This document shows positions 5,188-51,004 of a stretch of 64,000 nt of DNA, piece by piece. The notes under the pieces are model-generated. The model was given only the letters and a program-made list of their open reading frames with translations. It was not told the origin of the DNA and searched no databases. The stretch covers positions 930,001 through 994,000 of the forward strand of contig JARGXX010000025.1 in assembly GCA_030374765.1 (NCBI GenBank). Direction: 5' to 3'. Position numbers and translations under genes: made by a program. This DNA comes from Agarophyton chilense. Lineage: Eukaryota > Rhodophyta > Florideophyceae > Gracilariales > Gracilariaceae. The stretch's first letter is position 1. Every line of letters starts with the position of its first letter.

Positions 5188-5300
5188 TTGTTACAACCCA
5201 GAACCCCGATAGGAAGAGGCGCCTTTGAGGCGAATAAGCCGGTGCAACCGGAAAACTAAGTGAGGGAGCCCCTAGGGGGTCGGCACTAGTCGATCCCGTA

Positions 5301-5953
5301 GTGCTGACCAGGGAGAGCTCGCCTCCCTGCTCCCGCGCTTGGAAGCCCAAGATTCTCTTCGGGCCTCAGAAATTTCCGCCGTACGGAATCAATCCGCCGG
5401 ACGGAAAGCGAGTAGAGGTTGACTGTGGGTTACATCGTCCTTGGAGACGTTATACTGGTCCGTCAAAACGGGAAAGGTACCTCATGGTAGTGTCTAAAAG
5501 AAACTATAAGGTCTATGCCGACATCGGCTCTGACAGGAATCTGTTATCTCGTCGATTGACTATCCTGGACACAGGTGCTGGTCCGAACTTTATACAGGAA
5601 TCGGAGCTCGCTCCTGCTGACTTAGAACGTATTCGATACGGTCCTTTACCGGACCTCCGGGATGCCAACAAACATGCTGTGAAGACACTGGGAACAGTTC
5701 GACTCGTGGTGCGTTTGGGACGCTTTGTAGTCCTAGTCGACTTCATAGTCTGTAAGACGTTAGCTGCACCAGTGGTACTGGGATGTGATTATTGTGACAA
5801 GTTTGTCGAAGCCATTCTCCCGCGAAGAAAACTAGTGGAACTAGATGATGGATCAATGGTACCAATTGTTCGCAAGCCAATGCGTCGTTGCCTCGAAGCA
5901 CCTCCACTTCCACCATCTATGGAATACGGGAAATCCCGAGGACGTGTCTCGCC
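5301..5953 (+). pseudogene. Gypsy-1 pol: protease segment
   Basis: Encodes a retropepsin-like aspartic protease with the catalytic 'LDTGAGPNF' motif and the later 'PVVLGCDYCDKFVEAI' block, matching Gypsy-2 pol. It would cut Gag and Pol into mature proteins. The segment stops at a family II copia solo LTR inserted at 5954. Confidence 0.85.
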
Positions 5954-6624
5954 TCACAAAGTGAGCGCAGGTTATGAAAAGGAAAAGGAAAAGAAAGAAA
6001 AACACGAGAAGGAAACGAAAGTAAAAGAAGAAAAACAAATGAAGGTAGTCAGCCTTGACAATTTACTATGGTCGTCGGCGACCGTCATTGACAACTATAA
6101 CTACCTTGCACGCACTTCCACCGCCGGTGCTGACCGTCGACGGGTCACCCACGTCTCACAGATTGCCACCGTGCGACGAGGAGTTGCGCGCCAAAACAAT
6201 TTCAAACATAAATCATAACTAATAAAACCTCAAAAAATCATCCAAAGTGGTGCGCCAATCCAACTGCCCCGCGCAGCCCAGATTTGGCTGTTACGGCCAA
6301 ACCCAATATCCAGCCCCCATTCGCACATTCTCTCCAACTGCATAGCCCGTGCTCATTCAGCGCTCTCGTCCAACCAGATCGCTCCACTTGGGCCGAAGCC
6401 CCAACACGCCCCATTAGAACCAGAACACTTGTCCATACCACGTTGCATGAGGGCATTTGCAGTAGCCAATCAGATGGCCGTTTCACGTTGTGATTGAGAT
6501 GAGGCGCATATGCGTTTTTCCACGGAGGGTGTCCAAAAGTGCCCATGCTTAAATCTACTTTTGGTTTCTACTATTTCCAAGCTTCCCAGGACGTCGGAGT
6601 GGCTGTCGACCTAAATACTCAACA
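5954..6624 (-). repeat. Solo LTR, copia family II, in Gypsy-1 pol
   Basis: 671-bp LTR in reverse orientation (TCACAAAG .. CTCAACA on the plus strand). It is flanked by a perfect 5-bp target duplication TCGCC at 5949-5953 and 6625-6629. No internal element sequence is present, so it is a solo LTR left by LTR-LTR recombination. It is the same subtype as the LTR at 24863-25536. Confidence 0.94.
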
Positions 6625-6629
6625 TCGCC

Positions 6630-9094
6630 GAGGATTCGAGTAGCGAATAGTGCCATGTTGAAGGCGCAAACCCAAACTTGGGTTCAAGTAAGAACAGAAC
6701 GAGACGGGCTCGTAGCAATTTAACCGAATACTCGGATGTACGAATCCCGTTGATTGCTAGTCGCTAACGGCATTGTTCAGGCTGATCCTGGTAGCCCCTT
6801 CTGGATACTAGTGAGTAACTTCACCGATAACGATTATCAGATACCGAAGAATCAGGTTTTTGCAACAGCTTTGCCTCATCCCACAGTGGTGGTCCCTACT
6901 CATATTTCTACTGCAGAAGAATTGAGACTAACCCATGTCGGTGACACAGACGAAGAACTGCAAACTCCGTCTGGAGATCAATTGCAAACGGCAAAGGATC
7001 CAGAAAGCCTGGTCAATGAGGTAGACTTAGCACATGTGTCGGAACACTATAGAACGACAATCAGGTCTATTCTGAAGAAGTATACATCCATTTTGAGTGG
7101 AAAACTAGGAGAGATCTCCGCTACGGAACACCACCTTGATTTGGTCCCAGGGTCACGACCCATCTCCCAACCACCCTACAGAGCGGGACCGCGAACTCGC
7201 CAAATCGAGGAGGAGAATGTCAGCAAAATGCTGGAAGAAGGAGTAGTCGAAACAGCTCAATCTGCTTGGGCCTCACCAGTGGTGCTGGTTCCGATACTTG
7301 ATGGTTCTTTACGATTCTGTATCGATTATCGAAAACTGAACGCAGTTACAGTTCGAGATACATACCCCTTGCCTCGAATGAACGAATGTATTGACAGCTT
7401 AGAAGAAGCGAACGTGTTCACCACGTTGGACGCCAACTCTGGCTATTGAAAGGTGCCTGTAGCGGGAGAAGACCAAGATAAAACCGCATTTGCGTGTCAC
7501 GTCGGTCTTTATCGTTTCAAGAGGATGCCCTTTGGCTTGACGAATGCACCGGCTACTTTCCAGCGTACTCTGGACATCTTGCTCTCAAGAGACAAGTGGA
7601 AGATTTGTTTAGTCTATTTGGACGATGTGATCATCTTTTCCCAGGATGTGGAAAGCCATTTATGGCATGTCGAGGAGATCCTCAAAGCACTACAGAGCGC
7701 AGGTATCACCTTAAAGTTCAAGAAATGCGAATGGCTCGCTGCCAGCGTCCGGTACTTAGGACATGTGATCAAACCGGGACAGCTAGCCATTCAAGAGGCA
7801 CCAACTGCGGCTCTCCGCGAAGTACAACCTCCGTCGACACAGAAGCAATTGCGTTCTTTCCTCTGCTTTTTCAACGTCTACCGACGATTCGTGCCGCGAT
7901 ACTAGCATATAGCGGCACCGCTCAACGCAAAGCTGCGTAAAGGACAACCAGTACAGCTGGAACAATTCAGACAAGCTGAAGTGGAAGCGTTCGACACGCT
8001 GAAGACAAAGATTATTACAGCCCCATTCTTGGCGCTACCCATCCCCAACCTGCCATAATCAGTGGATACCGACTATAGTGAGTACCAAGTAGGGTGTGCC
8101 CTTTTTCAAACACACCCTGATGGTGAACTCAAACCCATTGGTTACCGTTCAAGATCGCTGAACGCAGCTGAGAAGAAATATTCAGTTTCAGAAAAGGAAT
8201 GCCTTCCAGTCGTTTGGGCTCTAACCACAACTCGACCGTATCTCCAAGGAGAACGTTTTACAGTCAACACGGATCATTCGTCTCTACGATGGTTACTGTC
8301 CATTACAGACCCGTCTGGTCGTCTCACATGATGGCGCTTACGCCTCTCTGAATTCGATTTCGTAGTGAAGTATAAGAAGGGATTGGCCGATGTCCAAGCT
8401 GACGCGCTATCGCGACTCAAAACACTAAGCGAAACCCAAGGCGAAATCGATGAAGAGATATCTTGCTTCTACATGGAGACCCATTCACCACCTTTTGAAG
8501 AAGAGGAACAAGAGACCCTTGATGATTATTCGGATGCAGACCCGTTACTTGCATTAGCAGACACTGACCCTTCAGTTCAACTCGAGCGAATCTCGTGCAC
8601 TGAGCTTCTCAATGAGCAACACGACGATACGTATTGTGCGTCGATACGCTCTCGTCTTAACGGGGGGGATGAGCTCCCCTTTTCACTCAATTCACGAGGA
8701 ATACTGTTAAGACATGTCAAAAAGCATGATCAAATCGTGATTCCACACGTCTCGAAGAGTCGAGTACTCCATCTGGCACACTACACCAGGTTTTCTGGTC
8801 ATCCAGGAGGAACGAAGTTGTTCATGACTCTAAGAAGAGATTCTTACTGGCCTACTTTGGCAATGGACTGCCATGCTACAGTGAGGTTGTGTAAAACTTG
8901 AGCGAAGAATCGCGTGAAGCTTTACAGGAAGCGGAAACCGATGACGTTATTCCAGGCGAATCGACATCCTAGGGGACTTGATTCGCTCAAAGCGAGGTTA
9001 TCGCTTCCTATTGGTAGTCACCGACCGCTTCTCGAAGCTAGTGCGGACTGTGCCGCTGAAGCGGATAACCGCAGCCGTAATTGCACAGGCGTTT
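6630..9094 (+). pseudogene. Gypsy-1 pol: RT, RNase H, start of integrase
   Basis: Reverse transcriptase shows 'WASPVVLVP', 'FCIDYRKLN' and the catalytic 'VYLDD' (near 7613). RNase H shows 'VDTDYSEYQVGCALFQ' and 'SEKECLPVVWAL'. Integrase begins with the zinc-binding region ('YTRFSGHPGGTKL') and continues to 'VTDRFSKLVRTVPL'. In-frame stops occur at 7447 (TGA replacing a conserved Trp in 'GYW'), 7903 (TAG), 8057 (TAA), 8329 (TGA) and 8899 (TGA). The gene is dead. A solo LTR splits the integrase at 9095. Confidence 0.9.
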
Positions 9095-9766
9095 TCACAA
9101 CGTGAGCGCAGGTTAGGTAAAGGAAAAGGAAGAAGAGGGGGAAAAGACGAGAAGAAGAGAAAAATAAAAGAAGAGAAACAAAGGAAGGTAGTCAGCCTTG
9201 ACAATTTACTTCGATCGTTGGCGACCGTCATTGAAAACTATATCTACCTCGCACGCAGTTCCGCCGCCGGTGCTGACCGTCGGCGGGTCACCCACGTCTC
9301 ACACCTTGCCACTGTGCGACGAGGAGTTGCGCGCCAAAACAATTTCAAACATGAAGCATATCAAATAAAAACTCAAAAAATCATCCAAAGTGGTGCGCCA
9401 GTGCCAACCACCCCGCGCAGCCCAGATTCGGCTGTTACGGCCAAACCCGTATCCAGCCCCCATTCGCACATTCTCTCCAACTGCATAGCCCGTGCTCATT
9501 CAGCGCTCTCGCCCAATCAAATCGCTCCACTTGGGCCGAAGCCCCAACACGCCCCATTAGAACCCGACCACTTGTCCATACCCCGTTGCATGAGGGCATT
9601 TGCAGTAGCCAATCAGATGGCCGTTTCACGTTGAGATTGAGATGAGGCGCATATGCGTTTTTCCGCGGAGGGTGCCCAAAAGTGCCCATGCTTAAATCCA
9701 CTTTTTGTTTTCCACTATTTCCAACACTCCAAAGGGCTTGGGGGCACAGTCGACCAAACCTCAACA
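9095..9766 (-). repeat. Solo LTR, copia family II, in Gypsy-1 integrase
   Basis: 672-bp reverse-oriented LTR (TCACAACG .. CTCAACA on plus) with a perfect target duplication CGTTT at 9090-9094 and 9767-9771. Its terminal 50 bases are of the subtype found at 21036, different from the other family II LTRs. Confidence 0.94.
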
Positions 9767-11409
9767 CGTTTATCAAACACTGGGTATGTATTTACGGACC
9801 ACCAGAAGTTCTGCTATCAGATAATAGGAAGCAATTCGTTGCGAAGTTCTTTCAGAATGTTTGCCGCATTATGGGCATTGGAAACGTGTCTACCACGACC
9901 TATCATCTGCAATTCAACGGTCAGGTGGAGCGTTTCAACCGCACGCTGATAGCAGCATTACGACACTACATCGCGGACCACCCGAAAAAATGGGACATGT
10001 TTACAGATACTCTGTGCTACTTGTACAATACGCAAGTGCATACCTCTACAAAGACGACACCGTTCGACCTCGTGCTCTCACGTAACCCTCCAACTTTACC
10101 GGTTGCGCTCGACGACGAGCCCGAATTGGAAGCGCCGACCCCGGCTAAGTACCATCTGAAATGGAGGAATGACCTGAAGGCCAGAGTGGAAGAAGCCGCT
10201 AAAGAGTTATCGAAGACGCAAGGTCGCTGTAAGCGAAACTATGACGCCAGAAGGCGAAGAAGAAATCCGGCAAGCCGAGTAGGAGGTCATGTCTTCGTGC
10301 GACTCGAAAGACCTGACAAACAGGAAGAATGGCGTCATAAGTTGTTGCCGATAGCAGCTGGACCGTTCAAAGTGGTGGACCTTGATGCAGACACAGTGGT
10401 AATCAAGACAGGTGAGGAAGTTGAACGTGTATCGCGCGATCGCGTTGAAGTCGCGCCTGACCCACAAGTGGAAGTCCAGGTATCTGGTAGAACTAAGGAG
10501 GCAAGTGCGACGGAACGTCAAGGCAAAAGCCCAAGTGACTCTGGGGAGAGTGAACCGCCACCAATGGCTCGAGCGGAGGAGAAAGTTCCTGATCTCCCAC
10601 TGCCAGCGGTTGCGTACGCCAATCACGGACAGCTTCCGAAATATCGGGATACGCCCCGTGGCACGCGCACATCCGTAAGTACAGAAATGGAACCTGAAAG
10701 CCGGAAAGATGTTTTGGACTTTGGCCCCAAGGACTTGGAAACGAGTGCACGCGAAAACGCGCCTTTGCCGCTTCAGGCTGAACCGTCAGGTGAAGCGCCA
10801 CTCGCTGTTCCGCCGATATCGGCTCCCATCCCTTGTGGGCAGGAAGAAGAAGAGGTATCGCCTCCTGTCGTGGTGCAAGCACCATCGTCCACCAAACAGC
10901 GGTCAGAATCGGATAAACCGAAGTAAGTTCATCCACGAATGGAATTGACAAGTAGCAAGAAGTACGCTTCTATGGAACCTGGAAAACAGGATAGCTCTTT
11001 ATCTGAGAAAGGTTCTCGAGGAATGAGTACACTGCCCCTGCGGGCAGAACGACAGTTTGTCGACGAGCGAACGCTTAGCGAAGCTAAGACTGCTAACACA
11101 GAGACGAATCGGTCAGCCCTAAGGCATTTCAAACCTGGTAACAGGAGTCTCGCGCCAACAGCGAAAGCATTTGGAAACGCCCAGGAATATGTTATGGATC
11201 GCATATGTGAACATAGCGAGCATGAAGATACTAGGGAATTACTGTATCGAGTCCGTTGGTACGGTTTTCCTCCGGAAGCGGATACGTGGGAACCTATATC
11301 TCATATCCCCCGTTCGCAACTCGTGCGATATCATCGACGCATGCGATTACCACTTTCAAGGGAGATCGACTCCTCGATAGTCGGGCTCATGGGCACATCC
11401 AATTTCTGA
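9767..11409 (+). pseudogene. Gypsy-1 pol: integrase core, tail and chromodomain
   Basis: Continues the integrase after the solo LTR: 'YGPPEVLLSDNRKQF' holds the second catalytic Asp and 'NGQVERFNRTL' the catalytic Glu. A long Pro/Glu-rich tail ends at TAA 10924-10926; the same frame then stays open to 11407-11409 and encodes a chromodomain ('YRVRWYGFPPEADTWEP', 'LVRYHRRM'). Chromodomains steer chromovirus integration to particular chromatin marks. The stop may be decay or may separate two products; Gypsy-2 has a stop at the corresponding place. Confidence 0.88.
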
Positions 11410-11681: not shown

Positions 11682-12466
11682 TCAAAGAGACGTGCAAGCA
11701 CGCAGGTTCGCATGAAGCTGTGCGCGATCACCCTCAACTTGGTCCAAGGGAAAGCCCGCGTCTAAGAGGAACTGCCTCAGCGGATCCAAGCCTGGATCTT
11801 CGACCGGCACTGCACTCGGTTGTTGGGTAAACCCATGGACGTACTCTTGAGCAACTCCCGCCGCTGCGGATTGATCGACGGAAGTCGCTACGCCTGCCAG
11901 CTCTGGCTCGTCCTCGTAACCGAGTTCAGCCTCAGCTCCCGGCGCTTCCTCATACGGTTCCTCTCCGTTCTCGGATGGAGTAGCATCGTACACGTATCCA
12001 GTAAGCTGGTTCGGTGACATGTCACGCAGGTTCTCCCGAAGAAAGCGAGCCTGCTCGGAGGTGAACAACTGGCGCGTCCAGGGGTCGTACCAAACGAAAT
12101 CTCCAGCACTTTCTGTTCGTCCAGGAGAATGGTCGTAGTGTCTTGCACGGGTTCCGCGAGCGGATTGATCAGGTGGCACTCCTGACCAATCGAAACTGTC
12201 GATCAAATCCACAAGATGTAGGAAGTCGGCATGGTTCGCACGGGATCCCAGTACAAGGGAAAGATCGAGTTCTCTCGCATACTTTCGCGCTGTGGGCGAC
12301 ATGTACCAAACTCTAAAGGTATCGTAAGCATCCCACAGGAGGAAGACGGCCATCTTGGCGATAAACTAGGTATAAATAACCGTCCAATATCCCGAGAACG
12401 GGTCGTTAACCAACGCGGACCCGATGTAGGAGATTGCCGGTGGGAGCTCCACAGGGCAACCACGAG
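11682..12466 (-). pseudogene. Gypsy-1 antisense ORF, C-terminal half
   Basis: Reads from 12466 down to a stop at 11682. It joins the N-terminal half across the solo LTR: 'GCPVELPPAISYIGSALV' continues directly from the other side. A TAG in 'VIYT*F' (Gypsy-2 has VVLTEW there) interrupts it; the open part from 12353 gives 223 codons. Aligned with the Gypsy-2 antisense protein, the blocks 'LWDAYDTFRVWYM', 'ARELDLSLVLG' and 'LIDSFDWSGVP' are conserved. I do not recognise a family. Confidence 0.8.
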
Positions 12467-13154
12467 TGTTGGATAGGGAAATGCTGAAGGAAAGGTTGAG
12501 GGATGAATGGAAAGTTCGCCAGCTCTGGCTTGGATTTACTTGGAGGCGCTCAAACTTTCACTTATATACTACTTCAAAACGTCAGCTGTCTAGACTCCAA
12601 CCCAAAGTAAACCCTAGACTACAAAGCAGGGACACTCAATACTACCAATCATATTCAAGCATGACATTAACTCTAGTCAATGTTCATTGCAGCGCACAAC
12701 AAGGCAATACAACAGTGCACAGCCCATAATTACACTGACGTGTGCACAAATTCAATATGCCAGCACACACTACTTGCAATCTGCCTCCATACACATTCAC
12801 GTTCCAGCACAGTACACCAAGTCTTCTGTAATACACATGTCACGTCTCTTCTCCAAGTACATTCGTTACACCTTGTGAGATGTGTTCATAGTACACCAGC
12901 TGGACATGTTGAACAGCGTGCACAGTAGTACAAGTAGACCACGTACACACGTGTGCCACGGACAAACCCAATAGTGCCATACCACTTGTACACACCACAT
13001 TGCCTGTGCAAATTTGCAGTAGCCAATCACAGCCCGAGTTCACGTTGAGATCCGAATGACACGCATATGCGCTTTTCCAGGGGCACCCTCCAAAACAGCC
13101 CATGTTCCCCTGCACTTTTGGTTTTTAGTGACAGCACAGGGTCAACAGCCAACA
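12467..13154 (-). repeat. Solo LTR, copia family I, in the antisense ORF
   Basis: 688-bp inverted copy of the LTR at 659-1347, TGTTGG..CCAACA, with a perfect 5-bp target duplication ACGAG at 12462-12466 and 13155-13159. It splits the Gypsy-1 antisense ORF. Confidence 0.95.
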
Positions 13155-14201
13155 ACGAGGACTCTCGGTCGCCGCCCAATGCTCCGGAATACCGATGTAG
13201 CGCCCGAACTGCGCGTTCGGCTGGATGCGGTCAATCTCGATCATTTGATACGGCACCAAATAGCCCAAACGTGATCGAGTACGACGTTCCCCACGGGGAT
13301 AATCCCAATAGGGAATGTCACGCTTTCGAAGGAAGCGGAACACCGCACGGAGAAGAGGTTGCTGAAAGCAGAGAGCTGCATCACGCACACCGCGCACACC
13401 GCACCAACCGCTAACATCGACTTCAACGAGTGTCTCGATATACGAGTAACTTTTGCCGTCAGTACGGGCTTTCCAGGTATCTAGTTCCCAGTCCTGCGGG
13501 AGGAGACCCGTATTGATGAATCGGTGAAGACGCTGGTAAATTAGCTTGGTGAGCCGCGTACGGGCTTCGGATAAGGTTTCCGTTGAATATCGCGCAATCG
13601 CGTTGTCTAGCAAAGCAATATGGCTCGCCCAGTCGTCGCTATAAATCGCATGTTCCGGAATACCGTCAGGGAAGTACCCATCGTGTACGTACTGTTGTAT
13701 CAACGCGTCATCGCGGATAACAACTGGATCAAACCAGGGCGCTTTCGCGAAAAGCTCAACGTTGTCGAGAGGATCTCGTCCATAGAAATCCGCAAGGTGC
13801 GTGTAGCTCCGCTGAGCACGACGAGAAGGAGCTCGAATCACACCCGCAGAGGCGACGTAAGCCGCGTTCGGCATCGGAGCCACGGTTGGCTGAGGTAACG
13901 GTACCGACCGGAATCCGGTGTACGGTGTGGGGAACGAACGGTATGGACCGAGTTGAGCAGTAGGCTGCAACGCAGAACCAGCAGTGTTGGACGGAGCCCC
14001 AGAAGGCACATCCTCAGAGGAGGGCTGAAACGGGTTGGACCCGGCGTTCGGATCCATCGCGAGAGATCGAGCTGAAGAGCAGTGAGGAACAGAATGCTGT
14101 TGAGAACTGTAAGAGTTGGTCGGGCGGCGAGGAATTCGTGATGACGATGAGTATCCGGAACACCGGTCCGACTGCGTATAAACGCTTCTTGTGTCCCCCA
14201 T
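13155..14201 (-). pseudogene. Gypsy-1 antisense ORF, N-terminal half
   Basis: ATG at 14201. The first ~130 residues are Ser/Pro/Gln-rich and likely disordered. A conserved core follows: 'APWFDPVVIRDDALIQQYV', a Trp/Tyr/Arg-rich middle, and 'RSRLGYLVPYQMIEIDRI' with 'QFGRYIG'. The last blocks are close to Gypsy-2 residues 'RSRFGFLVPYQNTEINRI' and 'QFGRYVP'. It is on the strand opposite gag-pol, just inside the polypurine tract. The frame is open for about 349 codons until the solo LTR. Function unknown. Confidence 0.85.
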
Positions 14202-30257: not shown

Positions 30258-31143
30258 TCAAGGACAATGCCCTTCAAGGGGGTTTCTTCCCAGGACTCAG
30301 AAGTTTCGCTCGCTTGAGGAATAGTTTGGGCTATGACAAGCTATACCGCTATTGCGTGCTGACGGCCGGTTAGGTCCGGAAGGGCACACTGGTGGAACAC
30401 GTGGACTGCACGGATGCCAACGCTCGAGTACGAGGCGTGCCACACGTGGCCCGGACTGTACCAAATGGTTAGTATTATTTAGTAATTTCTAGTATTTATT
30501 TAGCTAGGCTATCGCTATTTAGTGTCTATTTTTCGGGCGCGCGCCCAGTATCAGGGGCCGCGGGCCACACTACATAGGAGGTTGAGCACTGCTCCCCAGT
30601 AAACACCCTCTGGGGATCCCAAGGAGGGAGTCTTGGCTCTGAACTTTTCGCCTTCGGCGCGTCTTCACCGCATACTGCGTGAGCGCCCGTTGCCCGTTAG
30701 TGCATCCACCCGTCTGTCGACCAGAGTGCAACCACAACCGTGGGTTCATATTTAATCGCCCACACTTGTCGCAGTCTCGCTCCTGTATAGGGTTTCGACC
30801 CTGTGTTTCTCTCGTTCTCCTTTTAGGCTCTCGTGAGTGGCCGCACCACTCACCCCGCTCGTTCACCTCATACGAGTGTTTCCTCGCTCCTTTTCCGACT
30901 ATCGCCGTGGTACCGCTCCGCTTAGGACTGGTCACACCCCGGACTGTGCGGTGCTCACCTAAACACTCTAAGTATATCCCGCCGGATTGGACTCGGTCTT
31001 ACACCCGACTTCGTCGTGCCTTTCCAGAGTGGCTCTGTTTCTCTGCTCCGCTGGGACGCGCCTCCTCCGCCTGAGGCGTGTCTCTCAAGAGAGAAAGATC
31101 CCAAACATCTTCGCGGTATCTCCGCTACAAGCGTTGTCATACA
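30258..31143 (+). repeat. Gypsy-2 5' LTR
   Basis: 886 bp. Begins TCAAGGACAATG (TG in the partner LTR) and ends TTGTCATACA; AAGGACAA/TTGTCC form the terminal inverted repeat. It includes a GC palindrome block (gggcgcgcgccc, near 30536). Short ORFs in it are not supported as genes. Confidence 0.88.
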
Positions 31144-31146
31144 AAC

Positions 31147-31162
31147 TGGTCTCCGGACTTAG
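31147..31162 (+). promoter_or_regulatory. Gypsy-2 primer-binding site
   Basis: TGGTCTCCGGACTTAG starts three bases after the LTR; TGG is the complement of the tRNA CCA end. Near-identical to the site at 14895 in the other gypsy. Confidence 0.7.
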
Positions 31163-31308
31163 AAGTTTGAGTCGAGCACAGTCAGTCACGATTAATCGGA
31201 AAGAGGACTCACAAATTGAGGTTGATCTCAGTTGCCCTCTTTGAGGAAGTTTCCCGGCCCCACTAGCCGATCGGGTTTGGATACTCACGTGTAAAGGATT
31301 CTGATCTC

Positions 31309-33369
31309 GTGTCGTCCAAAGACCGTCCGAGGACGCGGAGTCAAACCGCTGCACCGGAACCATCGCAACCATCCCGTATCCCGGCTAGTTCACGGTCTCA
31401 TACCGGTGGATCGACTGGCGTGCCAGGTGGAAGGACCCCAAGACCTCCTGTCTGTGATTCGACACCCCTAGCAAGTGGAGCAGGACCGGCGTCTGCCGCC
31501 GCCCAGATGCTCTCCCGTGCTAGGGACGTCACCCCCCATCCCAGCCTTGCAGCTGTGGAAGAGCAACTCCGCTCTTTGCGGGAAGCTCAAGTCATCCTTG
31601 CAGAGGAGTTTGATTCCCTTCGCAAGAAGGTGAATGAAACTGCTACGCAGGAGTTTTCTGAGGACCTCCGTGTCCTCCGTGCGGATGTGAACTCGATTCT
31701 AGAGTGCCTTGGTGGACCCTCGGCCTTTGTCAAGGACGTCGCGGACAAGTTCTCGCGCGTCCGAAGCCATCTCAAGACGTTGGAACAAACCCTAGTGTCG
31801 GGGGATGATCTGGCCGAGCCGGTTGCAGTATCCCACAAGGGAAGTAAGGAAGAGAACCGCCAGGCTCGAGAGAAGCGAAAGAACACGGATCCCGAACCGT
31901 CAGACTCCTCATCCTTGGAGTCCGACTTTTCCGATTCATTGGTGGAAGTAGCTTGCGGTGAGCGTTCCTCACGCTCTAAGCGGTCAACAGCCACCCATGG
32001 TGTGATCGGCGCCCGCACGAAGGGAAGGAAGCACACAGGTTTGAAGGAGCTGAAACCGACCAATTCGCTCTTTAAGAAGCTCTTATCATTCCGGTACTAT
32101 CGTTTGGAGGACTCCTCTTTGGATCGTACACCCCGTGGTACGGGAAGAGTGAAGGACTGCATTAAGGGAATGCAGCTCTCACTTCGCAACCAGTTGTTTT
32201 CTGGAGAAAACCCAATAATGGTGTTTGATTTCTTGGCACGCTTTGTCGCAGAAGCTGACATCCTTGGAATGAACGAGGAACAGGCCTACATGGCCTTACC
32301 GTACTTCTTACGTGGGCTTGCAGAAGACCAGTATCACTCTGTCAGAGGTTCATCACGCGCCTCCGAAGGAGGGGTCACATGCTGGCCTGAAGCAGTTCAA
32401 TACCTCCTGAGGTCTTATGCTACTAACTCCGCCATTCAGCAGGCTGTAATAGCCCTGTGGGACACTCGCAAACGTCCAGGCGATTCGAAAACCGATTATT
32501 CGTCGCGCCCTAGCAAGGCCTTCCGCCGCTGTGGCAATTATTACCCTGCTGAAGAGCTTTGTACCATGTTTGTCGATGGTTTGGACCCGGCAATCCGGAC
32601 TCTTGTTGCTCGACGTCTACAAGATAGACCTAAAGCCACGTATTTGAAACTAGTGCAGTTCGCTCGCGCAGAAGGTAAAGCCCTGCGCGCACGCACTCCT
32701 GGATCCAGGGGTAGGTTCGCAGAAGCGTTGATGTTACAACCGGGTACCCCGTCAGCTTCGATGATCGACAAACAGGCCTCTCGAAGGGATTATGATAACG
32801 TCCAGCTAGCCCATAGCGACGTTCATTCCATCCCGACAACGGATTTACCCTCAACCTTGGACGAATCACAATTCGTGATTGAGGATGACACGCTACTCTA
32901 TGCGGATAATGGTCGCGTCCGTGCGCCACGCGTCCCGCACGAGAGTGGTAATGTCCGCTTTTCGCGTCCTGGTTGGAGAGATACCCGCCCAGCGGTGAAG
33001 TTCGCCGAGCCTCGCCACCCAACACCGGCTTCTGGTCTGATTTGTCATCTCTGCTACAAACCAGGCCATACTTCTCCACAATATGTGTTGTCTCTCCGGG
33101 AATGGGCACAAGTCGTAGCCAATTACGAGGCCCTATCCCCGGAGGACAAAGCAGCTGTCCCGATTCCATCGTATATCCGTGCTCGATCGGATGTTCCACG
33201 TCACGTGTCGCTTCCCCGAGCTCGGGTCGTACCTGCACCGGATTCCCGTGTCACCGACGTGGTTGGTCACCCCACCGCTTCTGCGGTACCTTCTGGACCT
33301 GATGCCCAGGCGTTGCCCGCTCAGCGCCCTGAGCAGCCGCCTCCGGAAGAGCAGGCCCAGAAAAACTAA
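31309..33369 (+). CDS. Gypsy-2 Gag
   Basis: Open for 686 codons to TAA 33367-33369. The frame start at 31309 is GTG; the first ATG in it is near 31507, so the true start is unsure. N-terminus Ser/Pro-rich, then a coiled-coil-like segment, then capsid ('FRYYRLEDSS', 'WPEAVQYLLRSYAT', 'FVDGLDPAIRTLVARRLQ') and a nucleocapsid knuckle 'CHLCYKPGHTSPQY' where the last Cys is Tyr (Gypsy-1 has Cys). Gag forms the particle and binds genomic RNA. Pol follows in another frame. Confidence 0.88.
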   Translation: MSSKDRPRTRSQTAAPEPSQPSRIPASSRSHTGGSTGVPGGRTPRPPVCDSTPLASGAGPASAAAQMLSRARDVTPHPSLAAVEEQLRSLREAQVILAEEFDSLRKKVNETATQEFSEDLRVLRADVNSILECLGGPSAFVKDVADKFSRVRSHLKTLEQTLVSGDDLAEPVAVSHKGSKEENRQAREKRKNTDPEPSDSSSLESDFSDSLVEVACGERSSRSKRSTATHGVIGARTKGRKHTGLKELKPTNSLFKKLLSFRYYRLEDSSLDRTPRGTGRVKDCIKGMQLSLRNQLFSGENPIMVFDFLARFVAEADILGMNEEQAYMALPYFLRGLAEDQYHSVRGSSRASEGGVTCWPEAVQYLLRSYATNSAIQQAVIALWDTRKRPGDSKTDYSSRPSKAFRRCGNYYPAEELCTMFVDGLDPAIRTLVARRLQDRPKATYLKLVQFARAEGKALRARTPGSRGRFAEALMLQPGTPSASMIDKQASRRDYDNVQLAHSDVHSIPTTDLPSTLDESQFVIEDDTLLYADNGRVRAPRVPHESGNVRFSRPGWRDTRPAVKFAEPRHPTPASGLICHLCYKPGHTSPQYVLSLREWAQVVANYEALSPEDKAAVPIPSYIRARSDVPRHVSLPRARVVPAPDSRVTDVVGHPTASAVPSGPDAQALPAQRPEQPPPEEQAQKN

Positions 33370-33371
33370 AT

Positions 33372-36300
33372 GTGGGAGTCTCCTCTCAAGGAGGGGCGCC
33401 CTCAGAGTCGAGGTCGACGGCGCCCGAGGCGTCCGAGTCTCGCTCCCCGGTCCAAATCCTTTCAAGGAAAGAGGCCATCAATGACGTGAACTGGGAACAC
33501 TTTCGTGCTCTGCGTCGTCCGTGGAAATGTGTTTCCCATAACCGGTTCCCGGATAGAGTTCTGGTGATGGCCAAGAGACACTACAAGGTCTATGCTGACC
33601 TTGGCCTTTCACCCCAGTTTATGGTGCGACACCTTACTGTCTTAGACACCGGTACCGGTCCGAACTTTGTCGTGGAGGAAGTCTTACCGTCTGAATTGCA
33701 GTCTAGAATCCGCTGCGACCACGTCCCGGAGGTCGCTGACGCTAACAACAAACCGTTGGATACGGTGGGGTTCATAGAACTGGTAGTCCGCGTTGGCGCT
33801 CGCGTGGTGAAACTCGACTTCGTCCTATGTTGGAAATTAGCCGCCCCAGTCATCTTGGGTTGCGACTTTTGCCACCGCTTCGTCGAAGCGATCTTCCCCC
33901 GCCAACGGCGTGTCGAGATGGAGGATGGATCGTCCACTCCGATCGTTCGTCGTCCGCTTAGGCGTGCCACGAAGAAGCATGTCCCACTACCGGTAGCACA
34001 GGAACCTGGACCGGATAAACGTGAATCTAATGAGCTCCGCGTCGCAGCGTCGTTGTGCGTCCCGCCTAAGTCCCAAATGATGGTGAAAGTAACCTCCCGT
34101 CAACACGGACTCCGGGTCTTGCAACCATTGTCGTCACTTTATGACAGGCACAGCCTCGCAATTGCGAATGGAATCGTCCATGTGGAGACAAACCAACCGT
34201 TTCACGTGCTGATTGCCAATCTAGGGACTGTACCCCAGTATCTGGTGAAGAACCAAGTGATAGGGTCCGTCATGCCGCACCCCATCGCTATGGTGCCGAC
34301 AAAGCTGACCGCAGCTGACGTTCTCGGACTTGTTCACTCTAAGGAGGGGGACAGCCCGGAACCCGTTTCATCACAGGTACCCGTGGTTCAACCTGTAACA
34401 TCAGAAACGCAGCCCGTTTCAACGAGTGGTGACCGCCCCGATCCAGTCCAAGAACTCGAGGACCTGGATCTCAGTCACGTCCCGGAGTCATACCGCCATC
34501 GATTGCGAGAACTGTTGACGGACTTCACCACTATGTGGGACGGCTCCCTTGGTGAGATTGCCACTAAGGAACACCGGATTGATTTGCTACCGGACACCCG
34601 ACCCATCTCTCAGAACCCATACCGTGCCGGACCCGCCGCACGCGGGGAGGAAAAGGCGCTAGTGGATAAAATGCTTCGAGCAGGAGTCATTGAACCGGAT
34701 CAGTCGCCGTGGGCTTCTCCAGTAGTACTGGCTCCAAAGCAGGATGGTTCCTGGAGGTTTTGCATCGACTACCGTCGGTTGAATGCCGTTACCGTCAAGG
34801 ACGTGTATCCAATCCCAAGAATGGAAGATTACATTGACGCGCTGGGCACCGCCACCGTCTTTACAACCCTGGACGCCAATTGGGGATACTGGCAAGTTCC
34901 GGTAAGGAAGCAAGACCAGATAAAACCGCTTTCGCGTGTCACTCCGGTCTCTACCGTTTCAAACGGATGCCTTTTGGTCTTACCAACGCCCCCGCTACTT
35001 TCCAGCGAGCCATCGACATCCTATTGGCCCACTTCAATTGGCGTACCTGCCTGGTCTACCTGGATGACATAATCGTCTTCTCAGATAATCTGGACAAACA
35101 TCTCACTCATGTGAGGGATATTGTGACCACGCTACGAGATGCGGGTGTCACTCTTAAGTTGAAGAAATGTGACTTCTTCACAAACACCGTGAAGTATCTC
35201 GGCCATGTTATCCGTCCAGGACGTGTTACAATCGAGGAGACTTGTGTTAAGTCACTCAAAGAGGCTAAAGAACCGCGGACGCAAACCGAGCTTCGTTCCT
35301 TTCTGGGACTCGCAAACGCCTACCGACGGTTCATCCCGCACTTTGCGGACAAGGCTGCACCGTTAAACGCGCTTTTGCGGAAAGGCCAACCACCAAAACT
35401 GGACCTCTTAACCCCCGTTCAAACGGAATCTTTCAACTCCCTTAAGGATTCTGTCGTCTCCGCCCAGATCCTCTCGTTTCCCAAGCCTGGAAGGCCCTTC
35501 ACCGTAGATGCGGACGCCAGCGACTACCCAGTAGGTTGTGCACTGTTTCAAACTGCACCCAATGGGGAAAGACGCCCCGTAGGGTACTGGTCCCGGTCGC
35601 TAAACGCCCACGAGAGAAATTACTCCGTCTCGGAGAAGGAATGCCTTGCAGTAGTGTGGGCATTACAAACGTTGCGCCCCTATCTCATGGGTAATCATTT
35701 CACCGTTTTTACGGACCACGCATCACTTCGATGGCTACTCTCCATCTCGCAGCCTTCAAACCGCTTGATGCGTTGGCGTCTCCGTCTAGCGGAATTCTAC
35801 TTTGACGTGCAGTACCGAAAAGGATCGTGCAACACCCAAGCCGATGCTCTCTCCTGTCTGGTCACTACTGGCGAAGCTCTACCCGTCAAAGACGATGAAA
35901 TAACCTGCTTTGCAGTGAATGGCGACTACGCTACCATCGAGGACGAGGAACGAGACACGGACTCCACGGAGTCCAGTTCCAAATTGAACGACTTTCTTCT
36001 CTCGGAAGAGTCCGAGAAACCCTTACCAGGGAACTTCGTGCCTATTACTCCAGAGTAGATGATACGGGAGCAATACGCTGACCCGTTCTGCGCGAAGGTC
36101 CGCGCTCAACTCAATGGAGGAGGTACTCTCCCCTTCCAGGTGAATGAAGCCGGATACCTTGTACGGACCGTTGGATCGCACCCACAAATCGTGGTACCAC
36201 ATAACCTCCAGTCGAGAGTCTTGCGGTTGTCGCACTACTCCAAACTGAGTGGCCACGTCGGGGGACGGAAGCTTTACCTCACCCTACGCCGTAACTTCTA

Positions 36301-38377
36301 CTGGCCTGCCATGGCAGTGGACTGCTACGCAACGGTGCGGTTTTGTACCGATTACGCTCGGAACTGTGTCAAACTCCGCCGTCATGCAACGAAGTTGAAG
36401 CTTTTTCCAGCTCGCGCTCCATTGGAGTTAGTGGCCATCGATATACTCGGTCCCTTCCTTACCATTAAGCGGAATTACAAGTTCTTACTCGTAATAACGG
36501 ATCGCTTCTCCAAGCTGGTCCGGACCGTACCGTTACGGAAGATCTCCGCTATGAGCGTGGCTCAAGCCTTCGTCCTACACTGGGTCTTCGTCTACGGCCC
36601 ACCGGTCAACCTCCTCTCCGATAACGGGAGACAATTCGCCTCTCGTTTCTTCGAGGATGTGCGTAGCATCTTGGACATTAAGAACCTGTTAACGACCACT
36701 TACCACCCCCAAACTAATGGGCAGGCCGAACGGTTCAACCGGACATTACTTGCGACACTCCGTTCATACGTTGCAGACCACCCCAAAGATTGGGACTTGT
36801 TCACTGATGCGCTCACCTTTGCGTACAATAAGCAGGTGCACAGGACAACCGGATTAACGCCCTTCGAGGTGGTTCTGTCCCGTACCCCACCACCCGTGGC
36901 GCTGGAACCACAGCCCACGCTGGATACCTTTCCGTCACCGACAGCTTACCGCGAAGCGTGGAAAACGTGGCTCACGAAGCTCGTTCCCGCCGCACGGCCT
37001 TCAATGGGCCGAGCCCAGGCCGCTTACAAGCGTGAATTTGATACCAAAGCCCCTCGCTCGCCGCCACGTCTCGCCCCCGACGGCTATGCATTCATCCGCA
37101 AGGAGTATTGGAACCAAGAGAAGGAGAAACGCCACAAGCTGTCACCAGTTGCCGACGGCCCCTTTCGGCTTATTTCGGTGGCTCCCGACACCGTCGTTGT
37201 TGACCTCGCTGGTAATCACGAACGCATCTCCCTCGATCGCGTGGTATCGGCTCCTCCGCCGTTAATATCCCAACCTACTGGTGTGACTGCTCAAGTTGAA
37301 ACGAATTCATCGACCCCCTTACCCCAGGTCCACCCTCGTCCCTACGCTTTACCACACCCATCTCGGGGTTTGTCTGACCTTCCGCTACCCGCGGCGCCCA
37401 ACCCGAAAGGAATCGTGTCGCGCATTCGTCGCTCCTCCCCAGTCCACCCGACGGACACCAACTCCGGTGCATCGTCTAAGGAGGGGGAGGCGCCCGACAG
37501 CCGTCGTAATCCTGTCGATACCGTCGCTGGAAACGCCACACCGTCGCGTGTCAATCTTCGCATATCAGGGGTGCCTGATACCGACGTCCCGCACGACTCG
37601 ACGCAGTCGCTATCCAAGCCTCAGAACGCAGCTGCGGATAGCACCACCAACACTCACCGAGGTGTCACCACACGTGCAACACGGAATGCAAATGCGCTTG
37701 ACGCACCGCAGCCTGATACAGTACAAGTGGACGACGCACCGCCAAGTACCCCGCACAGGGAGGCGGATACATCCACGGCGCCGACGCCTGACAGCAAGCC
37801 ATTGGAATGCTCACATGACTACACGGAATCTCTCCGTGGAACAGAGAGGTGCGAAAATGTGCCACCGCCCCAGCAAATCTCACCGCCGAAGCGAGCTTCA
37901 CCACGCCGATTAGCGGAACGACCACCCGGGTTACCCGCTGGTGTGGGCCCTCCAACCGGAGTGGGAAGCGCCGAAACAAGTCCGGCACTTGGAGAAAATG
38001 AACCGCCGAAGTCGGGTCGACATTCTACTCAGCCGAGGACTGCCTTGCGCGCTACACGGTCCGACCGGAGCGAAGCCGCCCAACGCGTGATCACTTCGGT
38101 ACCCCCTGGCTGAGGACGGGTACCACCCGGAAATAGCGACACCGTCATACGGGATGGCCGGGAAGTGTACCGACAAGAGTTCGTGGTCGGACGCATTCTG
38201 GAGCACTCCTACCACCCAAAGGGCTATCTCCAATACTTGGTCCGTTGGTACGGGTACGGCCCCGAATGGGATTCAGACTAACCGATAGAGCACCTACCTC
38301 GGTCAAAGGTGGTACAGTATCATCGTCGTACTGTCACGGCTTTGCCGGCTACCATAGACCGAGCCCAAGTGGGATAA
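33372..38377 (+). pseudogene. Gypsy-2 Pol (PR-RT-RH-IN-chromodomain), lesioned
   Basis: Protease 'LDTGTGPNF', RT 'FCIDYRRLN' and 'VYLDDIIVF', RNase H 'VDADASDYPVGCALFQ' and 'TDHASLRWLL', integrase zinc region ('YSKLSGHVGGRKL'), then 'VAIDILGPF', 'SDNGRQF', 'NGQAERFNRTL' for the DDE residues, a long Pro/Thr tail, and a chromodomain ('LVRWYGYGPEWDSD'). Lesions: one missing base near 34916 (Gypsy-1 has gaccaagat, here gaccagat), TAG 36056-36058, TGA 38111-38113, and a TAA at 38279 in the chromodomain. All other parts are in frame. Confidence 0.92.
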
Positions 38378-38505
38378 GAAGACACCCAATGGGAATAAAG
38401 GAACAGAAGATCTGGATAAGGACCCTTGGAAGAAGGAGAAGATGCACAGAAGACCTGGAGAAGGACACTCAGAAGAAGTGGAAGAGAAGAAAGAAAACAA
38501 ATACG
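38378..38505 (+). other. Purine-rich spacer between pol and antisense ORF
   Basis: Almost pure A/G on the plus strand, for example agaagaagtggaagagaaga. It matches the position and composition of 11410-11681 in Gypsy-1, but not its exact sequence. Confidence 0.6.
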
Positions 38506-40458
38506 TCATAGACGGAAGCAGTTTACTATTTTCGAAGTTGCTGCACACACTACCGCACAGCGGGACATACTAATCAAGATCACAAGGGATTCGTTGGAAG
38601 AACCCGGATTGCCGTGTGCGCCACCCGAATCGCTAGAAGGGTTACTCCCGCCGGCCAGGCGTGCCGCGAGGGCGTCTCTCATCGCACCGATGTCGCCGCT
38701 CGCCGCTTGCGCGTTCAGTCCAACACCCCGAAGGAACTGGGAGATCACGACTGCCTCTGGGCATATGGGAACCTCGATAACTTCCGGTTCGTCCGGCAAC
38801 GCCGCCGCCACTGGATCGACCACCGCACCTGCGTGAGTTGCTCCCTGCACCGGCCGCGCCGTAGTATCGGCACCATCGGGGTCTACCATGTCTTCCATGA
38901 CCTCGTCGCCACGGTATTCGCCCGCCTCCTCAGGGAGATCATCACAGCCATAGGCGTAGTAGAAGTCATCCGAGTTGACAAACCCTACGGGGTGCCTGTA
39001 TGGTATGCCTCGCGGAGCCATCCGGAGTGCCGACGCCTCAGCCTCAGAGATCTCTTGCTGCTCCCTTGGGTTAAAGAAGATGAAATCTCCTGCCAACGGC
39101 GTGCGACGCCCCGGAGACCGATCAGCCCCACCGGCTTCTTGACCACGGCCGCTCTGCCGGACAGGCACGACAGCCCAGTCGACATGCCCAATGATGTCGA
39201 TGAGCTCCTGAGCTTCATCAGCGTTATTGACACCTCCGAGAGGGAGTTGAAGGTCCAGCTGCCGGATGTAACCACGCAAACGCAGAGGAAGATACCACAG
39301 TCGATACTGGTCGTAGGCTTCCCACAAGATGTACGCCGCGGCGCGGACTGCCCATTCGGTTAGGACCACGGACCATAAGCCGGAGTGCGGATCCTCGATG
39401 AGATACGAGCCCAGATAGGAGACGACTGGAGGCAACTCCACGTAACATCCCCGGCCCACCTCGACGGAGGACCACCACCCAGGCAGGGGAACGTATCGCC
39501 CGAACTGGTAGAAGGGACTAATCCGGTTTATCTCCGTGTTCTGATAAGGGACAAGGAACCCAAAGCGGGATCTGCCCCGACGCTCCTCTCGGATGAAGTT
39601 CTGTAACCACCGATATCGGGACTCACGACGATGGTGACGAAACTCGGCACGAAGGATCGGACGGACCCAGCAGATCGCTTCTTGACGCGCTCGCGGTTGA
39701 CCGCGCCATGCGTAAGTTTCCAACGCCGCAAGGCGGTCACAATAGCCCATCTCACCCTGCGTCCGGTACATCCGTAGGTCGAAGCCGAATTCATCGGGGA
39801 TGGGGTATTGAAAGATTGCCCGGTTGATCCGTGAGTAGCCGATGCGGACGAAGGTACAATGCGCCTCTTCCGCCGACTCGCGCCTTCGCCGCAGAATCGC
39901 GTGAACGGGAACCGCCACACGGCGTCGCCAGTCCCACGAAGTGGTGATCAAAGCCGGCAGTTCGCCCGGGAGACGCGCATTGCCATCAGCATACGCGGCC
40001 AAGAGTTCTTCGTCGAAGACGGCTGTCGGGTGGAACCACGGAGCTCTCCGGAGAATCGCCGCATGTTGACGCGGGTTTAACCCGACGAGTTCGTCGTATC
40101 TGGGCCAGGTGCCCTCCGCAGGAGTGATGTGGCTTGAAGCTTCAACGGGACCCCGGGATCGGCTCGGTGCGGTTGAGGAGGCACTCCCCCGCGGAAGGGG
40201 AGCCGAATGGAAACCGGAGAAGTAACCCCGGCGGGGATTGTCACCACTGTTCATCGGGAGTGCTGGTCGCCAAGGTATCGGGATGTGGTCGCTGGAAGTA
40301 GGGGTACTATGCGGAAGAGCGCTCGAAGTTCGAGGAGTGGTTACCGCGTTGGTGCGTTTGTCGTTCGGTTGTGCAGCTCTGCCTTCGACAGTCGAGTGGT
40401 CGCTGGACGCGTTACGCGGCTCGCTCTTATGCCGGTTGGACCGTTGCCTCCCCGCCAT
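38506..40458 (-). CDS. Gypsy-2 antisense ORF, unknown conserved protein
   Basis: 650 codons, uninterrupted, on the strand opposite gag-pol. Start chosen at ATG 40458 (MAGRQRSNRH..); the frame stays open upstream into the LTR without an earlier ATG. Residues 1-120 are basic/Ser/Pro-rich; the core (about 130-420) is rich in Arg, Trp and Tyr ('APWFHPTAVFDEELLAAYA', 'RSRFGFLVPYQNTEINRI', 'GRGCYVELPPVVSYLG', 'LWEAYDQYRLWYL'); the C-terminal third is acidic. The same blocks occur in order in Gypsy-1. No TM segment, zinc finger or nuclease motif is recognised. Plant Tat-lineage gypsies have antisense ORFs at this place, but I cannot claim homology. Confidence 0.85.
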   Translation of the reverse strand: MAGRQRSNRHKSEPRNASSDHSTVEGRAAQPNDKRTNAVTTPRTSSALPHSTPTSSDHIPIPWRPALPMNSGDNPRRGYFSGFHSAPLPRGSASSTAPSRSRGPVEASSHITPAEGTWPRYDELVGLNPRQHAAILRRAPWFHPTAVFDEELLAAYADGNARLPGELPALITTSWDWRRRVAVPVHAILRRRRESAEEAHCTFVRIGYSRINRAIFQYPIPDEFGFDLRMYRTQGEMGYCDRLAALETYAWRGQPRARQEAICWVRPILRAEFRHHRRESRYRWLQNFIREERRGRSRFGFLVPYQNTEINRISPFYQFGRYVPLPGWWSSVEVGRGCYVELPPVVSYLGSYLIEDPHSGLWSVVLTEWAVRAAAYILWEAYDQYRLWYLPLRLRGYIRQLDLQLPLGGVNNADEAQELIDIIGHVDWAVVPVRQSGRGQEAGGADRSPGRRTPLAGDFIFFNPREQQEISEAEASALRMAPRGIPYRHPVGFVNSDDFYYAYGCDDLPEEAGEYRGDEVMEDMVDPDGADTTARPVQGATHAGAVVDPVAAALPDEPEVIEVPICPEAVVISQFLRGVGLNAQAASGDIGAMRDALAARLAGGSNPSSDSGGAHGNPGSSNESLVILISMSRCAVVCAATSKIVNCFRL

Positions 40459-40480
40459 TTCGACGGCGTGTTCGTCACCT

Positions 40481-40493
40481 AAGGAGGGGGATA
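40481..40493 (+). promoter_or_regulatory. Gypsy-2 polypurine tract
   Basis: aaggagggggata directly before the 3' LTR start TGAAGG at 40494. Confidence 0.78.
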
Positions 40494-41381
40494 TGAAGGA
40501 CAATGCCCTTCAAGGGGGTTTCTTCGCAGGACTTAGAAGTTTCGCTCGCTTGAGAAATAGTTTGGGCTATGACAAGCTATACCGCTATTGCGTGCTGACG
40601 GCCGGTTAGGACCGGAAGAGCACACTGGTGGAACACGTGGACTGCACGGATGCCAACGCTCGAGTACGAGGCGTGCCACACATGGCCCGGACTGTACCAA
40701 ATGGTTAGTATTATTTAGTAATTTCTAGTATTTATTTAGCTAGGCTATCGCTATTTAGTGTCTATTTTTCGGGCGCGCGCCCAATGTCAGGGGCCGCGGG
40801 CCACACTACATAGGAGGTTGAGCACTGCTCCCCAGTAAACACCCTCTGGGGATCCCAAGGAGGGAGTCTTGGCTCTGAACTTTTCGCCTTCGGCGCGTCT
40901 TCACCGCATACTGCGTGAGCGCCCGTTGCCCGTTAGTTCATCCACCCGTCTGTCGACCAGAGTGCTACCACCACCGTGGGTTCATATTTAATCGCCGACA
41001 CTTGTCGAAGTCTCGCCCCTGTATAGGGTTTCGCCCCCGTTTTCCTCTTGTTATCCTTTTTTTGGCTCTCGTGAGTGGCCACACCACTCACCCCGCTCGT
41101 CCACCTCATACAAGTGTTTCCTCGCCTCTTATCCGACATTCGTCATGGTACCGCTCCGCTTAAGACTGGTCACACCCCGGACTGTGCCGTGCTCACCTAA
41201 ACACTCTAGGTATATCCCGCCGGATTGGCCTCGGTCTTACACCCGACTTCGTCGTGCCTTTCCAGAGTGGCTCTGTTTCTGTGCTCCGCTGGGACGCGTC
41301 TCCTCCGCCTGAGGCGTGTCTCTCAAGAGAGGAAGATCCCGAACATCTCCGTGGTATCTCCGCTCCAAGCGTTGTCCTACA
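40494..41381 (+). repeat. Gypsy-2 3' LTR
   Basis: 888 bp, TGAAGGACAA .. TTGTCCTACA. It differs from the 5' LTR by scattered substitutions and small indels, so the insertion is not recent. Confidence 0.9.
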
Positions 41382-42198
41382 CAAACCAGCCTCAGGCGGT
41401 CGTGTTTCTAAGATTAATGAGGCGTTAACTACATATGATGCAGTCCTTATGATGTCTCAAGCATGAAACATGGTACCTACAAAGGTGGTAATGAACGGTT
41501 GGTTGAGCACATCTATATCGGCTCCACACCAAATTGAGGAGCTCAGAGTGCTGAAGGATGTCTTTTCGGAAAATACCATTCCTGCCCAGCGTCCTCCTCG
41601 TGGGAGTGCGACAATCACTGAGAAAGAGATTCAACAGAGGGTTGCATCTATTGCAATGCAGCCGGGTAAAGTGTGGCTACAAAGCACGGCTACAGACATA
41701 GTGAACGCTTTGGACGTGTTTGAAGAGGACATTTTAGACGGCCGGGGTACAGATGAACTAAAGGAAGAACTACAGGAACTGTCGGATTTGGACGTTATAC
41801 AGCCCTTCTCTTATACTGATTGGTAATGCTTTAACAGCATTGAGAAACCGGTAGATGTTTGTAATCCAGTTACAGAGCAGAATGCAGTCGCTGTTGTCGT
41901 TAAGGACGCATTAGGTATCGACGAAGACGCACAGGAAACAGAGCGCACAGAAAATGTCAAGAGCGAAATAGAAAGTGATATGGTGCTTCCCAAGCCATTG
42001 CTGGCCAGATACGAGAAGTCTATCGAGGACATGAAGAGAAAGCTAGGTTTGATAGTGGCAAATGCACACTCCTTTATGACAGAATTCGACATGGGAAGGC
42101 TGCAGTTCTGCATTGATTCAGAATTGGATAGGATTTCCGAGCATCGAAGGAGCAAGAAAAGACAGGCGAGAATTGATGACTTTTTCAGCAAAACGTGA
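41382..42198 (+). pseudogene. Pogo-like transposase, C-terminal part
   Basis: Continues the transposase after Gypsy-2: 'INEALTTYDAVLMMSQA', then TGA at 41464-41466 where Trp is expected, 'NMVPTKVVMNGWLST', to TGG-TAA near 41823. After a frame change the C-terminus 41980-42198 ends in 'QARIDDFFSKT'. QxxIxxFF is a PCNA-binding (PIP) box, which is known from Drosophila pogo transposase. The decay predates or accompanies the Gypsy-2 insertion. Confidence 0.8.
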
Positions 42199-50608: not shown

Positions 50609-50726
50609 GGCGGCGTCGCGCGACGTGCGACGTGCGACGTGCGACGTGCGACGTGGGGGCTTTGCTGCGCAGGAGATGCGCGCGCTGGCGATGGCAACGA
50701 TTCGAAGCAAAAAGGGCGGCGCGCTG

Positions 50727-50850: not shown

Positions 50851-51002
50851 TTATACAGCAGTGAGAGCGAAGCGCAAGAAGGCGTGCCACGTGGCCACGA
50901 GGGGGTCGGGGGTGGGGGGGTGGGGGTGGTGAGGGTGGGGCAGTGACGCCACGAGTGGGTGGCGGCGCCGTGGTGTGCTCATCGGGCAACAGAAATGAAC
51001 AA

Positions 51003-51004
51003 CA

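Follow-up and report, generated by a model that had tools for sequence, protein, structure and literature searches.

The stretch of DNA analysed here (the window, 64,000 nucleotides from Agarophyton chilense) contains, in its Gypsy-2 retrotransposon, a long reading frame on the minus strand, which is very probably an accessory gene of a chromodomain-bearing Ty3/Gypsy lineage of gracilarialean red algae, coding for a protein and maintained by selection. We infer with moderate confidence the whole reading, in which this gene would be expressed in antisense and its product would be an accessory protein acting in trans, and any single specific role for that protein would be at most a tentative proposal.

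The antisense frame and its element

The frame of 650 codons lies between the chromodomain and the 3' LTR of Gypsy-2, antisense to gag-pol (Table 1), and the coordinates together with the alignment of both LTRs (841 of 886 alignment columns identical) confirm the place given to it in the original prediction. Also as predicted, its start is found just inside a purine-rich tract, with the ATG at about 38 nt from the edge of the 3' LTR. The chromodomain of the element is recognised by the Pfam Chromo profile with 26.2 bits (cut-off of 25.1). In the encoded protein, a disordered-looking N-terminus rich in Ser and Pro is followed by an Arg-rich core, an acidic linker, and a short conserved C-terminal block. 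No target-site duplication is obvious by eye beside the LTRs as delimited (30200-30260 and 41382-41440), and a scan of 30200-41500 against Rfam gave no match.

An open frame arising by chance, from the GC content or from an overlapping sense gene, has to be considered, given that the region is 58% GC and that this composition favours long frames. However, in 3000 order-1 Markov simulations of the 2120 nt of the ORF region, read in six frames, the longest open run has a median of 174 codons, a 99th percentile of 310, and a maximum of 423, against the 650 codons of the ORF, and the longest plus-strand ORF listed across the interval has 249 aa. Moreover, homologues are present in four families, and the conservation of the protein already refutes a chance origin, whose probability is practically negligible.

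Two further features of Gypsy-2 are worth describing. A 14-bp direct repeat (GGACTTAGAAGTTT) is observed at 31155-31168, just past the 5' LTR and at the expected primer-binding site, with its second copy (again GGACTTAGAAGTTT) inside the LTR at 40529-40542; this repeat may bear on the priming of reverse transcription. Also, a long plus-strand purine-rich tract at 38370-38505, between the chromodomain and the end of the antisense ORF, is possibly a second polypurine tract.

Table 1. Features of Gypsy-2 and Gypsy-1 in the window
Feature	Position	Strand	Remarks
Gypsy-2 5' LTR	30260..31143	+	ends from the LTR-LTR alignment
Gypsy-2 gag, presumed protease region, RT, RNase H, and integrase	31309..38113	+	several frames
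Gypsy-2 chromodomain homology	38141..38374	+	in-frame stop at 38279-38281
Gypsy-2 antisense ORF, 650 aa from ATG	38506..40458	-	ATG at 40458, stop at 38506, frame open to 40503
Purine-rich tract adjoining the Gypsy-2 3' LTR	40477..40495	+	read by eye
Gypsy-2 3' LTR	40496..41381	+	ends from the LTR-LTR alignment
TATA-like words in an AT-rich block, some 260-300 nt upstream of the Gypsy-2 antisense ATG	40717..40757	-	suggestive only
Gypsy-1 gag, protease region, RT, RNase H-integrase, and chromodomain homology	3870..11334	+	broken by LTR-like repeats
Gypsy-1 antisense ORF, second part	11961..12464	-	one in-frame stop
660-bp repeat splitting the Gypsy-1 antisense ORF	12467..13126		inverted copy of 689-1347
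First part of the Gypsy-1 antisense ORF, homologous to that of Gypsy-2	13137..14201	-

The counterpart of this ORF that had been proposed in Gypsy-1 is real, its first and second parts, matched at 14204-13137 and 12479-11961 of the minus strand, being 29% and 41% identical to the Gypsy-2 ORF, with the sequence blocks that had been quoted for it occurring in order. The chromodomain of Gypsy-1 reaches 40.4 bits with the Pfam Chromo profile at 11182-11334 (same cut-off of 25.1), and an uninterrupted antisense frame of 611 codons is found in five of the 30 Gypsy-1 loci examined in the genome.

The surroundings of Gypsy-1, between 2531 and 25834 of the window, correspond to a nest of copia elements and LTR-like repeats that break up Gypsy-1 and one another, the repeats being present in both orientations (2531-3205, 5952-6570, 9095-9768, 15145-15740, 21035-21653, and 24863-25531). 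Elsewhere in the window, a GC-rich stretch at 50001-52000 (66% GC) shows long overlapping ORFs on both strands and an array of 16-bp tandem units at 50704-50880.

Families, layout, and relatives of the antisense protein

The genome from which the window comes (79.8 Mb, 135 contigs) was searched, the counts that follow being of best matches and hence lower bounds. The Gypsy-2-type antisense ORF is present in at least 67 loci and the Gypsy-1-type in at least 113, and two other families are observed, a third one (C) with at least 77 loci and a fourth one (D) with at least 71 main loci, or at least 125 matches if second pieces are counted. These numbers are of loci and not of independent insertions, since tandem or duplicate copies seem to be among them. 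Of the matches listed, 54 of the 77 loci of family C and 52 of the 71 main loci of family D are free of stops in the main matched stretch. On one contig, three family-D antisense ORFs of equal score are 9.2 kb apart (L064, at G000:C68:3138000-3140050, and its neighbours), suggesting a tandem array of elements with common LTRs.

A comparison of single members of the four families shows pairwise identities of 32-50% for the antisense protein, and 48 residues are invariant in the 345 columns common to nine antisense proteins. For the RNase H-integrase of the same families, identities are 53-70% (299 residues), and therefore the antisense protein diverges faster than pol. Gypsy-2 and D are the closest pair by both proteins. 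However, in pol the distance of family C to D is smaller than that to Gypsy-1, whereas in the antisense protein C is about equally distant from Gypsy-1, Gypsy-2, and D, so that the kinship of pol and that of the antisense protein agree only in part.

The position of the ORF with respect to pol is recurrent. For Gypsy-2, 37 pairings of an antisense ORF with an RT are found within 12 kb (from at least 67 ORFs and at least 105 RTs); in 36 of them the ORF is antisense to and downstream of the RT, mostly at 2.45 kb, and in the remaining one both are on the same strand, while ORFs for which no RT is among the matches listed are uninformative either way. On the plus strand of one family-D element, available as two separate pieces, a gag-like ORF is followed by RT, RNase H-integrase, and a chromodomain that scores 23.1 bits (short of the Pfam cut-off of 25.1); the antisense ORF comes next. 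A 3.2-kb piece of family C, close to the ORF, encodes RT and RNase H-integrase on the strand opposite to it. Moreover, a purine-tract motif precedes the antisense ATG in all four families, at a distance of about 25-80 nt by visual count; the alignment of LTR pairs covers Gypsy-2. The ORF has, then, the layout of an antisense accessory ORF (aORF-3R), that is, an antisense orientation, a position between pol and the 3' LTR, many copies, and a conserved protein. These data support the proposal of the original prediction that diverged Gypsy families with a chromodomain share a conserved antisense gene in the same position.

By protein search, 17 relatives were found, three of them hypothetical proteins of Gracilariopsis chorda and eight of them unnamed products of A. 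chilense, both genera being Gracilariales; such searches reach relatives that have short exact words in common with the query, and absence elsewhere is not implied. The A. chilense protein P0006 is 89% identical to the Gypsy-2 antisense protein over 38% of the latter. On the other hand, P0002 from G. chorda is 57-71% identical to the listed family-D loci and 49% identical to Gypsy-2. Because P0002 is nearer to D than to Gypsy-2, the antisense families seem to predate the split of Agarophyton and Gracilariopsis, unless they were moved horizontally.

The protein had been predicted to belong to no known family, and this holds for the databases consulted. The Gypsy-2 antisense protein gives no Pfam match at E up to 0.1, six homologues searched at E up to 5 give one stray match only (E = 0.26), and a sequence search of the PDB gives no match. 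The suggested family search succeeded in that it yielded the homologues of G. chorda and A. chilense; the structure prediction that had been suggested with it was less useful, the two AlphaFold models built from nine-row alignments being poor (mean pLDDT of 48.1 and 46.0), and Foldseek with the second model found no match in PDB and BFVD at E ≤ 0.001. Based on these comparisons, the antisense proteins appear to form a new family, without prior description.

One possibility is that the gene was captured, a host or viral gene having been taken up in reverse by an ancestor of these elements, perhaps with a host-like function. The reverse orientation of the ORF would fit this origin, as would the absence of any relation to the element's own proteins, since a profile comparison of the antisense protein with the gag and RNase H-integrase of family D revealed none. 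However, among the 17 relatives, reached through short exact words in common and judged from the protein sequences alone, none is recognised as lying outside such elements, and we consider capture rather unlikely. In any case, this is a claim on origin, which is compatible with the reading of the ORF as an accessory protein gene.

Selection on the reading frame

The original prediction had argued from the contrast between a clean antisense ORF and a pol with several stops. This contrast is true of the copy in the window but it proves nothing. The antisense ORF has a mean of 2.85 stops per copy among the 67 best-scoring Gypsy-2 copies listed, and the argument fails because two of these 67 copies are clean, when 3.9 would be expected by Poisson. 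A second proposal, to compute dN/dS across copies, turned out to be a poor test, as the changes are mostly private and look near-neutral, although constraint does show in the shared variants and in the younger-looking family D.

In 30 Gypsy-2 copies, changes were classified as shared (in two or more copies) or private, stops being counted with the nonsynonymous changes. The antisense frame contains 1047 private and 334 shared changes, and its N/S ratio is 1.55 for the shared against 2.50 for the private ones (Fisher p = 0.00032). No such difference is seen in the shifted frames of the same strand (shared and private N/S of 2.52 and 2.41 in one, and of 2.71 and 2.76 in the other), and the plus-strand frames give p values of 0.57, 0.057, and 0.89, the middle one being the frame that shares wobble positions with the ORF. 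Identity to the window copy is 93.6-95.6% in 21 copies with a full-length match, a comparison from which eight of the 30 loci were left out as their matched stretch is not of 1995 nt, all 30 being in the shared/private test. Most differences between copies look private and near-neutral, arisen after insertion, and dN/dS over all pairs of Gypsy-2 copies was dropped as a test of selection for that reason.

The integrase end and the chromodomain of Gypsy-2 serve as a reference, with N/S of 1.96 shared against 2.56 private (p = 0.17) and 1.33 against 3.44 (p = 0.061), respectively; both counts include 24 copies, as in six of the 30 the pol side is diverged or broken. By these values, the antisense ORF looks about as constrained as the end of pol. 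For Gypsy-1, the antisense frame shows 1.84 shared against 2.62 private (p = 0.025) in 29 copies, the insertion-broken copy of the window being omitted from the 30. However, two control frames of Gypsy-1 deviate the other way (p = 0.0084 and 0.011) and the wobble-sharing frame deviates in the same direction (p = 0.032), and therefore this test is weak by itself.

In family D, the N/S per site among six copies, chosen among open and high-scoring loci, is 0.54 in the ORF frame. The opposite frame that shares its wobble positions gives 0.62, and the four remaining frames give 0.88-1.10. Pairwise dN/dS is 0.46-0.66 among family-D copies and 0.52 for two family-C copies. A dN/dS of 0.23-0.28 between C and D was set aside as proof, dS being saturated (2.6-3.2). 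Taken as comparisons of genomic copies, these data clearly indicate purifying selection on the ORF frame in the replicating lineages of Gypsy-2 and D, and weakly in those of Gypsy-1.

This result bears on whether the relevant product is the RNA. In that case, a minus-strand transcript from the 3' LTR would regulate the element, for example through double-stranded RNA, the ORF being secondary, and non-coding antisense transcripts of LTR elements are indeed described (PMC7264820). Nonetheless, selection acts on this reading frame and not on the strand as such, and the protein is kept across the families at the identities given above, which makes an RNA-only explanation quite improbable. Roles of an antisense RNA and of a protein may coexist.

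Low lysine, expression, and known systems

The antisense protein of Gypsy-2 has 70 R and 3 K, and its core (residues 116-480) has 48 R and no K. The ratio K/(K+R) is 0.01-0.12 in ten antisense proteins of the genome and 0.02-0.18 in the 17 relatives. Higher values are seen in eight pieces of gag-pol from Gypsy-2 and D (0.26-0.52) and in eight other ORFs of the window (0.37-0.55). Against the counts of AAA/AAG expected from position-specific base frequencies, Gypsy-2 has 3 when 12.1 are expected (Poisson p = 0.002), six D copies have 1-3 when 10.2-11.2 are expected (p of 0.0003 and 0.008 for two copies), Gypsy-1 has 4 when 11.3 are expected (p = 0.012), and two C copies have 6 when 11.1-11.7 are expected (p of 0.05-0.07). 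Codons AAT/AAC are at or above expectation in the antisense ORFs. Lysine is clearly depleted beyond composition in Gypsy-2 and D, the depletion in C being borderline.

A frame-specific loss of lysine was considered and dropped: the ORF frame has 1-6 AAA/AAG codons and the next one 10-16, but the third frame, with 3-8, is also low and in C lower (4) than the ORF frame (6). The depletion is therefore judged against codon-position composition and against gag-pol. Moreover, new lysines are not rarer among shared (14 of 359) than among private changes (58 of 1329; p = 0.77), so that selection against lysine is deduced from its recurrence across families only.

Long K-free stretches with R, as in the Gypsy-2 core, are known from lysine deserts, which are described as typical of ubiquitin-system components and of some viral proteins, mostly in human and yeast, and are read as an avoidance of ubiquitylation (PMC10169902). 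The role in the ubiquitin system belongs to those proteins, and the Gypsy-2 antisense protein is likened to them by composition alone. Following this likeness, the lysine-poor protein could be an adaptor or inhibitor of the ubiquitin system used against host silencing, that is, a counter-defence protein whose composition would let it adjoin or hijack the host ubiquitin machinery without being destroyed, for example as an adaptor sending silencing factors of the host to degradation. The low K/(K+R) of the ten genome proteins and the 17 relatives speaks for this role. However, no ubiquitin-system domain or fold was found in the searches described above, new lysines are no rarer in shared than in private changes, and the depletion is borderline in family C, making it an improbable role, although one that, if true, would give antisense ORFs of LTR retrotransposons a first function.

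The preferred reading is that of an accessory protein working within the cycle of the element. Minus-strand transcription of the ORF would begin at a promoter within the 3' LTR; because the ORF starts against this LTR, the promoter is expected there or beyond. On the minus strand, both Gypsy-1 and Gypsy-2 have TATA-like words within an AT-rich block, which lies some 260-410 nt upstream of the antisense ATG, and in family D one TATA-like word is found at the edge of the sequence read; these are only suggestive as candidates for the antisense promoter. A scan for bacterial-type promoters and terminators found about as many as in shuffled sequences, its model being of the wrong kind for an alga. 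The Arg-rich, lysine-poor product would then act in trans, most likely as a stable factor associated with nucleic acid or chromatin, its low lysine content limiting its ubiquitylation, and possible tasks would be to regulate the RNA of the element or to help its DNA into the nucleus. Particle assembly, silencing evasion, and regulation, as suggested in the original prediction, are likewise hypothetical roles.

A comparable layout is known from plants, where Retand, Grande (gene23), and RIRE2 carry an antisense ORF (aORF-3R) between pol and the 3' LTR (PMC7264820, PMC11963269). As in Gypsy-2, these ORFs are antisense to gag-pol, between pol and the 3' LTR, and present in many copies, but their hosts are non-chromovirus (Retand) or Tat-type elements, unlike the chromodomain-bearing Gypsy-2. 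A TRP28 domain (PF04195) is reported in 57 of 104 Retand antisense ORFs (PMC11963269), whereas in the red-algal antisense proteins it is absent among the matches of six homologues at E up to 5, in a search whose filters drop most matches above 0.1. In Grande, gene23 has a promoter of its own and its product is nuclear (PMC7264820). Also, brtn is an additional antisense gene of the Boty-like elements of the fungus Botrytis cinerea (PMC7264820, PMC8365987), an example of a Gypsy antisense gene outside plants, as here, in another host kingdom and likened by layout only. In the primate retrovirus HTLV, a minus-strand gene has its promoter inside the 3' LTR (PMC7264820); the likeness is again in the layout, minus-strand expression of Gypsy-2 being on our side what we infer.

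The original prediction had limited the precedents to Tat-lineage elements of plants, and they are wider than that, as brtn shows; its other part stands, in that no report of an antisense gene of this sort in red algae was found in the open-licence literature. The chromovirus trait of Gypsy-2 and Gypsy-1 is the chromodomain at the end of integrase and is known from that domain alone, and chromodomain-bearing Gypsy lineages of brown algae are described as not grouping with chromoviruses (PMC12477816). The layout is then already known from plants and a fungus, and it is the protein family and the host group that appear to be new.

Finally, in the sections of reviews that deal with them, the function of antisense ORFs between pol and the 3' LTR is given as unknown (PMC7264820, PMC11963269). 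An abundant red-algal case, whose protein matched no known family and shows signs of being itself under selection, points to antisense accessory genes as a solution reached repeatedly by Gypsy elements. Moreover, the scarcity of lysine in the protein offers a tangible biochemical clue, with which this unknown function becomes testable, in terms of the half-life of the protein and of the avoidance or hijacking of ubiquitin.
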